Origin: Streptomyces mirabilis
Lineage (GTDB): Bacteria; Actinomycetota; Actinomycetes; Streptomycetales; Streptomycetaceae
Reading direction: 5' to 3'
Length of the DNA stretch: 64,000 nucleotides
Assembly (NCBI RefSeq): GCF_018310535.1
Contig: NZ_CP074102.1
Location: 4,650,001 to 4,714,000, forward strand
Of the stretch, positions 38,268-40,613 are shown piece after piece. The notes under the pieces were generated by a model. The model ran no database searches. It was not told the origin of the DNA and saw only the letters and a program-made list of their open reading frames with translations. The position numbers were made by a program, and so were the translations under genes. Position 1 is the stretch's first letter. The number at the start of each line of letters is the position of its first letter.

Positions 38268-38546
38268 TTACTCCGTCGTGGCGGTGGGCTGCTGCTCCGC
38301 TTCGGTGGCGGCCCTCTTGAGGGCGGCGTCGCGCCCGCGGACGTACCAGATGCCGATCAGGCCGAGGCCCGCGCCGGCCAGGCAGGTCCACACCCACCAC
38401 AGGTGCCCGTGGTCGTCGAACCAGCCGTAGAACGGCAGCTGCACCAGGAAGAGGACGAACCAGAGGATCGTGCCGCCCGTGATGGTGGCGACGACGGGGC
38501 CCTCCAGGGGCTCCGGCGCCTCGTGCTTGGGGGTCCACTTCGCCAT
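38268..38546 (-). CDS. DUF2530 membrane protein
   Basis: A 92-residue protein beginning MAKWTPKHEAPEPLEGPVVA, the usual start of the DUF2530 family. It has two membrane helices, ITGGTILWFVLFLVQLPFYG and WTCLAGAGLGLIGIWYV, and a charged Ala/Glu-rich tail. ATG 38546 is preferred over GTG 38552. Function unknown. It is divergent from the purine-permease gene. Confidence 0.82.
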   Translation of the reverse strand: MAKWTPKHEAPEPLEGPVVATITGGTILWFVLFLVQLPFYGWFDDHGHLWWVWTCLAGAGLGLIGIWYVRGRDAALKRAATEAEQQPTATTE

Positions 38547-38636
38547 GGACACAGCTTACGAGGCCGTCCGCCCCGGCTCCGCCGGACCCGTGCGGCCCCT
38601 TGTATACCAACGGTCTACGCGCGGAGATAGCGATTT

Positions 38637-38747
38637 CAGACTCATATGTTCATACTGAAACGGTCTGAGTCTGGCTCTTTCTGTTCGTACGAAACTCCAA
38701 CAGAAACATCTGAGAAACCTGTTGGTGATCGCGCAGCGGCCAGACTC
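38637..38747 (+). promoter_or_regulatory. AT-rich leader with competing hairpins upstream of purine permease
   Basis: Four perfect stems can be drawn. H1 is 38637-38644 with 38666-38673 (CAGACTCA/TGAGTCTG). P1 is 38667-38675 with 38739-38747 (GAGTCTGGC/GCCAGACTC). H2 is 38678-38685 with 38699-38706 (TTTCTGTT/AACAGAAA). H3 is 38697-38703 with 38719-38725 (CCAACAG/CTGTTGG). H1 excludes P1, and H2 excludes H3, as expected of an RNA switch. It does not contain the J2/3 core of known purine riboswitches. Alternatively these are operators of a DNA-binding regulator. A promoter could not be placed with confidence. Confidence 0.5.
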
Positions 38748-38828
38748 GATCATGTTTCCCCCAGCCCGGCGCCGTCCCCGCCCGGCGCCAGTCCTGGCCC
38801 GCAAGGCCCCGCACGTATGAGGTCACCC

Positions 38829-40280
38829 ATGTCCACCTCGGCCACCACCAAGGCCCCCGCCCCGGACCAGCCCGGGCCCGGCCCCGCGCAAGGCGCCCTG
38901 GACCGCTATTTCAAGATCTCCGAGCGCGGCAGCTCCCTGCCCCGCGAGATCCGCGGCGGTCTCGCCACCTTCTTCGCGATGGCCTACATCATCGTGCTGA
39001 ACCCGATCATCCTGGGCAGCGCGAAGGACATGTACGGGCACCACCTGGACAACGGCCAGCTGGTCACCGCGACCGCCCTGACCGCAGCCTTCACCACGCT
39101 GCTCATGGGCGTCATCGGCAACGTGCCGATCGCGCTGGCGGCGGGCCTCGGCGTGAACACGGTCGTCGCCCTCCAGCTCGCCCCGCGGATGTCCTGGCCG
39201 GACGCCATGGGCATGGTCGTCCTCGCGGGCTTCATCGTGATGCTGCTTGTCGCCACCGGTCTGCGTGAGCGCGTCATGAGCGCCGTGCCGCTGGGCCTGC
39301 GCAAGGGCATCGCGATCGGTATCGGCCTGTTCATCATGCTGATCGGCCTGGTCGACTCCGGCTTCGTCACGCGCATCCCGGACATCGCGCAGACGACCGT
39401 GCCGCTCCAGCTCGGCGCCGACGGCCACCTCAACGGCTGGCCCGTCCTGGTCTTCATCCTCGGCACGCTGTTCACCCTCGCGCTGATGGTGCGCAAGGTG
39501 CCCGGCGCGATCCTGATCTCGATCGTCACGATGACGGTCGTCGCGGTGATCATCAATGCCGTCGCCAAGATCCCGTCCTGGGGTCTGACCACCCCGAAGT
39601 GGCCCGGCAACCCGGTCGCCACCCCGGACTTCGGGCTCGTCGGCAAGGTCAGTCTCTTCGGTGGCTTCGACAAGGTCGGCGTGCTGACCGGCATCCTCTT
39701 CGTGTTCACCGTGCTGCTGTCGACCTTCTTCGACGCGATGGGCACGATCATGGGCATCAGCGACGAGGCCAAGCTGACCGACGCGCAGGGCAACATGCCC
39801 GGCATCAACAAGGTCCTCTTCGTCGACGGCATCGCGGTCGCCGCGGGCGGCGCGACCTCCTCCTCCGCCACCACCTGCTTCGTGGAGTCCACGGCGGGCG
39901 TCGGCGAGGGCGCCCGCACCGGCTTCGCGAACGTCGTCACCGGTGCGCTCTTCGCCGTGGCGCTGTTCCTCACCCCGGTCGCCACGATGGTCCCGTCCCA
40001 GGCCGCCACGCCCGCGCTCATCGCGGTCGGCTTCCTGATCATGTCCCACTCGGTCAAGGAGATCGACTGGGCGGACTACACGATCGCCATGCCCGCCTTC
40101 GTGACCATGGTGATGATGCCGTTCACCTACTCGATCACGAACGGCATCGGCATGGGCTTCATCACCTTCGTGGTACTGCGCCTGGCCGCCGGCCGCGCCC
40201 GGGAGATCCCGGTCGCGATGTACGTCGTCTCGGCGGTGTTCGCCTTTTACTACCTGATGCCGGCCCTGGGCCTGACGTAA
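38829..40280 (+). CDS. NCS2 family purine (guanine/hypoxanthine) permease
   Basis: A 483-residue permease with about 13 membrane segments. Family signatures are EIRGGLATFFAMAYIIVLNP, AALGLGV-like LAAGLGVNTVVALQLAP, the region KVPGAILISIVTMTVVAVII, VLLSTFFDAMGTIMGISDEA and VAAGGATSSSATTCFVESTA, the last marking the AzgA-type guanine/hypoxanthine/adenine subgroup. ATG 38829 with GAGG about 8 bases upstream is preferred, and ATG 38817 is an alternative. It is preceded by the structured leader and ends in a terminator. It probably imports purine bases by proton symport. Confidence 0.9.
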   Translation: MSTSATTKAPAPDQPGPGPAQGALDRYFKISERGSSLPREIRGGLATFFAMAYIIVLNPIILGSAKDMYGHHLDNGQLVTATALTAAFTTLLMGVIGNVPIALAAGLGVNTVVALQLAPRMSWPDAMGMVVLAGFIVMLLVATGLRERVMSAVPLGLRKGIAIGIGLFIMLIGLVDSGFVTRIPDIAQTTVPLQLGADGHLNGWPVLVFILGTLFTLALMVRKVPGAILISIVTMTVVAVIINAVAKIPSWGLTTPKWPGNPVATPDFGLVGKVSLFGGFDKVGVLTGILFVFTVLLSTFFDAMGTIMGISDEAKLTDAQGNMPGINKVLFVDGIAVAAGGATSSSATTCFVESTAGVGEGARTGFANVVTGALFAVALFLTPVATMVPSQAATPALIAVGFLIMSHSVKEIDWADYTIAMPAFVTMVMMPFTYSITNGIGMGFITFVVLRLAAGRAREIPVAMYVVSAVFAFYYLMPALGLT

Positions 40281-40502: not shown

Positions 40503-40613
40503 GCAGTCAAGGGTCGCGGGCGCCGGGTGGACGAGGGGTCACTTTCTGGATGCGACTCACTCATATGGGTGACGTAAAGGTTCAGTGGCCCGCGTCACGG
40601 GCACTCCGTGGCT

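Follow-up and report, generated by a model that had tools for sequence, protein, structure and literature searches.

The window analyzed here, a 64-kb stretch of a 9.1-Mb contig from a Streptomyces-type genome, carries on its forward strand a gene for an NCS2-type permease (38829..40280; PF00860, E = 2.8e-30). No NCBIfam name matched the protein, so its substrate is one that we infer. A likely ribosome-binding site can be recognized in the sequence ahead of the gene (GAGG, 38819..38822, forward strand), and an in-frame alternative start lies at 38817. The permease is flanked by a divergent 92-aa ORF upstream, with its start at 38546, and a MarR-family gene downstream. The palindrome TCACTCATATGGGTGA (40557–40572) adjoins the start of the MarR gene, similar palindromes occur in nine relatives, and it is likely to be the operator of the MarR gene itself.

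Upstream of the permease we found a conserved 88-bp element (38613..38700, forward strand), of which the earlier-noted stretch (38637–38747) covers only a part. The element precedes the permease in all 30 orthologous loci, which were taken from 56 genomes with a match, and its length is nearly constant, with 36 or 37 bases followed by 51–53 in 29 of the 30; the exception, L007, has an 11-nt duplication and was left out of the 29-sequence alignment (A1). Among other loci, L039 was dropped as the window itself, and L040, L120 and L127 because the anchor was absent from the slice searched. A sequence-only model (R1), which matches the element in the window, also matched within the genus in 227 of 246 genomes and within the order in 356 of 391. 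All 80 named loci nearest to the permease are from Streptomyces, and each carries TTCATACTGAA ahead of that gene with no more than one mismatch. One further 30-of-30 count of the element adds no new evidence because its genomes were chosen among earlier matches. In the window's own genome R1 gave a single match at E values up to 10, with 150 of the 1610 candidates from a first look scored, and a second copy there was accordingly rejected. The permease start codon lies 51 to ~210 bases from the conserved core across loci. At one locus (L149, genome G132) the promoter element is kept and the permease gene is missing from the locus (no tblastn match), and the sequence soon after the element resembles the last codons of the permease.

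To judge from its sequence, the upstream half of the element looks like DNA in its behavior, forming a promoter with a control site. The near-palindrome TCTACGCGCGGAGA (38614..38627) is a putative operator of a purine/nucleoside regulon; of the 305 unique leaders at this permease, 282 carry it when up to two mismatches are allowed, and 23 do not. It begins 35 bases (188 leaders), 36 bases (93) or 37 bases (one) before the near-invariant TTCATACT (38649..38656, forward strand), the predicted −10 region, in which CATACT occupies 38651–38656. Columns of TTCATACT are 99–100% conserved in the 282 leaders with the dyad and 100% conserved in the 23 without it, values favored by the selection of loci, which were anchored on that core. 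By sequence, TAGCGA (38628..38633, forward strand) is a weak −35 candidate, and TTGGCG stands 18–19 nt before CATACT in 11 of the 23 dyad-less leaders. On the near-invariance of TTCATACT and the spacing of TTGGCG we read the region as a promoter from which transcription begins near 38662; the start predicted from the −10 region (38661..38663, forward strand) coincides with the beginning of the helix P1 described below. A sigma-70 consensus scan found no promoter, so both the promoter and the start near 38662 are offered as predictions. A 544-aa ORF from 38646 spans the predicted promoter. A small upstream ORF with its ATG at 38646 was considered and rejected; the ATG precedes TTCATAC in 129 of the 305 unique leaders. 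In another locus (L128), a tandem duplication around TTCATACTGA gives two −10-like copies 17 bases apart.

The dyad recurs elsewhere in the genome beside genes of purine and nucleoside salvage. Eight places in the window's own genome differ from TCTACGCGCGNAGAT at no more than one position, and six of them, including the site at the permease itself, adjoin salvage-type genes: the purine nucleoside phosphorylase gene pnp (TIGR01698), deoC (TIGR00126), an adenosine deaminase gene (NF006847), an ABC-importer ATPase gene that follows a gene for a BMP-type lipoprotein (PF02608), and purQ (NF002957), before which the site lies at ~330 bp. The form that recurs at these five kinds of gene is CTACGCGNGTAG, and the importer presumably takes up nucleosides. 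The other two sites are near an oppC-like gene and near a gene for an unnamed secreted protein. When two mismatches were allowed, the own genome yielded 29 and 30 matches, and a reversed control yielded 13 and 11. Across three other genomes, 15 of 19 dyad sites adjoin the same genes, one is at oppC and three adjoin no gene for any of the 12 proteins compared; across twelve further genomes, 22 of the 23 loci examined adjoin the same genes and the remaining one is at oppC. In eleven of these twelve, a span of 47 kb contains three or four perfect palindromes, and in G525 a span of 20 kb contains two; the reversed control pattern matched as often or more in three of the twelve. Nine of the twelve had been chosen because their permease is without the dyad, and these nine nevertheless keep the regulon sites. 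The recurrence of the dyad at salvage genes makes it most likely that the permease belongs to a purine/nucleoside regulon. The CTACGCG dyad adjoins the oppC-like ABC permease gene in three genomes (L273, L318 and L405), and this gene is possibly a further member. The earlier note had offered paired operators as an alternative to RNA, an idea that was half right, since the regulon-type dyad at 38614–38627 lies just outside the stretch to which it referred.

A DeoR-family gene (PF00455, PF08220) was found 1.8–3.2 kb from a palindrome in all 16 genomes, and its position near pnp makes the encoded protein our candidate regulator of the dyad. No named NCBIfam regulator scored above its cut-off for this protein, which reached 73 bits against the E. 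coli DeoR model (cut-off, 244).

In the window's clade, the downstream half of the element looks like folded RNA. The segment 38662–38752 folds at −34.8 kcal/mol (z = −3.37), its first bases lying within a 14-pair helix, P1, whose 5′ arm (38662..38676, with a bulge at 38666) and 3′ arm (38738..38751) are defined by the fold and by counts in a clade alignment, A3; a longer RNA, 38613–38831, gave z = −1.90. A3, which also defines a mini-hairpin, P2 (UUC-GUAC-GAA, 38684..38693), comprises 24 sequences, L132 having been left out as misaligned in alignment A2 and L389 because the start codon interrupts it. The arms of a third helix, P3 (38697..38703 and 38719..38725), carry compensatory changes; all these features are on the forward strand. 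Together P1, P2 and P3 keep 91.8% of A3 cells paired, a value that falls to 24–43% when the partner is slid, and five pairs are changed on both sides, in 12 cells, which none of 500 shuffles equaled. Further pair types, at 12 versus 11.0 in shuffles (123 of 500), were not above shuffles. Compensation is clearest in P3, where pair 42–61 is A-U in 16 sequences, G-C in six and G-U in one, and weaker in P1, where most variation is from U-A to U-G or from U-G to C-G; P2 is nearly invariant and therefore uninformative for covariation. P1 pair 13–82 is lacking in nine of the 24 sequences and P3 pair 40–63 in eight. The apical loop of P3 is often GGGGGAA in relatives such as L004, L072 and L239 despite changes in the stem; the window's loop is without it. 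Between P1 and the start codon there is a GC-rich inverted repeat, ggcgcc...ggcgcc (38768–38794), without a T-run.

Among 249 unique leaders, 60 have a P3-like stem of 8 bp or longer, versus 7–11 after shuffling. In swap tests with 69 lineage representatives, the first transcribed bases paired better with the segment that follows them in their own leader than with the corresponding segment of other species; uncorrected values for the P1 arm were p = 0.0014 against 46–76, p = 0.0016 and 0.0236 against 46–106, and p = 0.0278 against 46–120, and control swaps (76–120, 120–180, 110–140, upstream and direct-repeat) gave p = 0.17–0.77. P2 gave p = 0.049 and 0.037, also uncorrected, and P3 p = 0.25 across all lineages. 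A further model, R2, was run on 180 loci, excluding L001–L151 and L252–L271, and 14 scored at least 69 bits: seven members of the model, five sequences identical to members and two new ones, L167 and L176, the latter with three P1 pairs broken. With A3 and L132, the new matches bring the three-way-junction leader to ~27 distinct leaders.

An RNA reading of the element for the whole genus was rejected: RNAalifold on the 29 sequences gave −0.85 kcal/mol and four pairs, none changed on both sides. When 104 unique ungapped leaders were set against 60 simulations of a tree-based null, one coupling, at offsets 40–44, exceeded all 60, and it is not Watson–Crick; the next, at offsets 16–20, had E = 0.05, was paired in 57% and joins positions four bases apart. 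Fold z fell below −2 in 14 of 89 leaders for offsets 13–75 and in 12 for 13–103, compared with 15 and 13 for coding controls and seven for upstream DNA. Across the genus, the leaders do not exceed coding controls in structure. Conserved, covarying structure, on which the earlier note had staked its RNA, is thus seen in the window's clade (A3, 0 of 500 shuffles) and not seen genus-wide by RNAalifold, the tree-based null and fold z.

We propose, with a probability of roughly 0.65, that this region controls a permease of a purine/nucleoside-salvage regulon and carries in addition a clade-specific folded leader. A dimeric transcription factor, for which the DeoR-family protein is the best candidate, would bind the dyad at 38614–38627, which overlaps the −35 position or lies just ahead of it, and RNA polymerase would use TTCATACT as its −10 region and begin transcription near 38662. 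The leading part of the transcript would then, in the window's clade, fold into a three-way junction in which P1 closes P2 and P3; this junction would protect the 5′ end and may modulate mRNA stability or translation. The computed results on which we build are that the element is conserved, that the dyad recurs beside salvage genes, and that P3 and, more weakly, P1 show compensation. From them we infer the regulator, its effector and the sign of its action, the transcript start and the role of the leader.

The stems that first drew attention to the leader are present as described. The sequence gagtctg (38667–38673) is perfectly complementary to cagactc at both 38637–38643 and 38741–38747, and aacag (38699–38703) to ctgtt at both 38681–38685 and 38719–38723; the full perfect helices measure 7 bp (38637–38643/38667–38673), 9 bp (38667–38675/38739–38747), 7 bp (38679–38685/38699–38705) and 7 bp (38697–38703/38719–38725). 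The stretch is also AT-rich, as had been said, at 46–50% GC versus ~70% in its surroundings. The statement that such pairing is unlikely by chance was borne out by 2000 dinucleotide shuffles of 38637–38747, of which seven had at least two separate alternative-pairing zones, six had as many two-partner 7-mers and 34 had a perfect helix of at least 9 bp, but 71 of 1727 sliding 111-nt windows across the 64 kb also reached two such zones. From these counts the stems are real and unusual for their composition, but not unique within the window.

A flip-flop RNA switch in this leader is possible. A purine-responsive switch of this kind, confined to the window's clade and sensing a metabolite through the junction or through exchange of P1 with 38637–38643, is in our judgment rather unlikely to be the explanation. 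It is favored by the strong fold (z = −3.37), by the compensated junction in A3 and by a gene whose product is a permease of a purine-type family, and the conservation of the alternative arms bears on it in both directions. In a first count, in which P1 was free over 25 positions and P3 over five and the alternatives were fixed, P1 kept at least six of seven pairs in all 23 clade members, the arm at 38637..38643 did so in 12 of 23, and the arm at 38681..38685 kept five of five pairs in five of 23 (both arms on the forward strand). When the count was repeated with equal freedom, the P1 arm had a partner in upstream DNA in 18 of 23 members, in the outer-helix region in all 23, and in three control regions in nine, two and three of 23. 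The upstream partner is thus present more often than by chance, and on this repeat we regard the arm at 38637–38643 as partly kept, in 18 of 23 when position is free and in 12 of 23 at the exact place. Only the predicted start near 38662 places this arm outside the RNA, a point against the switch. Of the switch proposed in the earlier note, the outer helix and one hairpin are conserved with compensation in the clade, and the arm at 38681–38685, complete in five of 23, is poorly conserved. The junction, moreover, is absent from most of the genus, with 14 of 180 loci reaching 69 bits. The layout of an attenuator, also suggested, was not supported: a scan of 38547–38860 for terminators of the T-run type found no site. 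That the core of a purine riboswitch is not visible here was correct: Rfam gave no match in the 64-kb window at the gathering score, none to the purine riboswitch in 38590–38850 at E values up to 10, and, at low thresholds, nothing noteworthy either in the leader or in seven related loci.

P1, P2 and P3 could be a new, clade-restricted purine- or nucleoside-sensing RNA that works on the permease gene alongside the regulon's transcription factor, giving two layers of control by related signals, which we consider unlikely. Quite unlikely, too, is a reading in which the downstream core TTCGTANGAA and its neighbors (38671–38700) serve as another DNA site for protein binding, with the RNA stems of secondary importance. 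In 104 unique leaders the 41 bases that follow TTCATACTGAA are constant in length, and CTGRC, TTCGT..GAA and CCAA are nearly fixed within them; this stretch could be a second protein site, an RNA–protein contact or an unpaired RNA core. The constant length, the non-Watson–Crick character of the strongest coupling and a direct dyad in the window, TTCGTACGAA, suit the DNA site, whereas P3 compensation and the P1 swap test favor RNA in part of the leader. Regulation of the permease through its leader by the neighboring MarR-family gene is very improbable, as synteny is what speaks for it and that gene is adjoined by its separate palindrome, TCACTCATATGGGTGA.

The regulon reading, if true, accounts for the best-conserved portion of the region that controls the permease, and gives purine/nucleoside salvage in Streptomyces a candidate regulator and an operator that can be tested. 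A search of open-licence papers found no operator or leader of this kind described; text searches with CTACGCGCGTAG returned unrelated matches, those with TTCATACTGAA none related by title among the matches listed, and SCO3915 had no match. The portions of PMC3224704 and PMC4848846 covered give no binding site. The junction leader offers a small case in which to ask what makes some lineages, and not others, retain RNA folding next to an operator.

Nucleoside and purine salvage is governed by transcription-factor regulons in other bacteria, such as those of DeoR and PunR in E. coli and NupR in B. thuringiensis. The regulon proposed here resembles them in that one palindromic site serves phosphorylase, aldolase, deaminase and transporter genes, and differs in its operator sequence and in that the Streptomyces regulator is only a candidate (73 versus 244 bits). 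Like a purine riboswitch (aptamer, Rfam RF00167), the leader would form a three-way junction before a purine-type transporter gene, but it differs in having no covariance-model match at any threshold used, in having nearly no P2 and in its restriction to a single clade. Stems in 5′ leaders can also stabilize bacterial mRNA; P1 is unlike these in being long-range and closing a junction, and like them in that the predicted 5′ end lies within its 14-pair helix.
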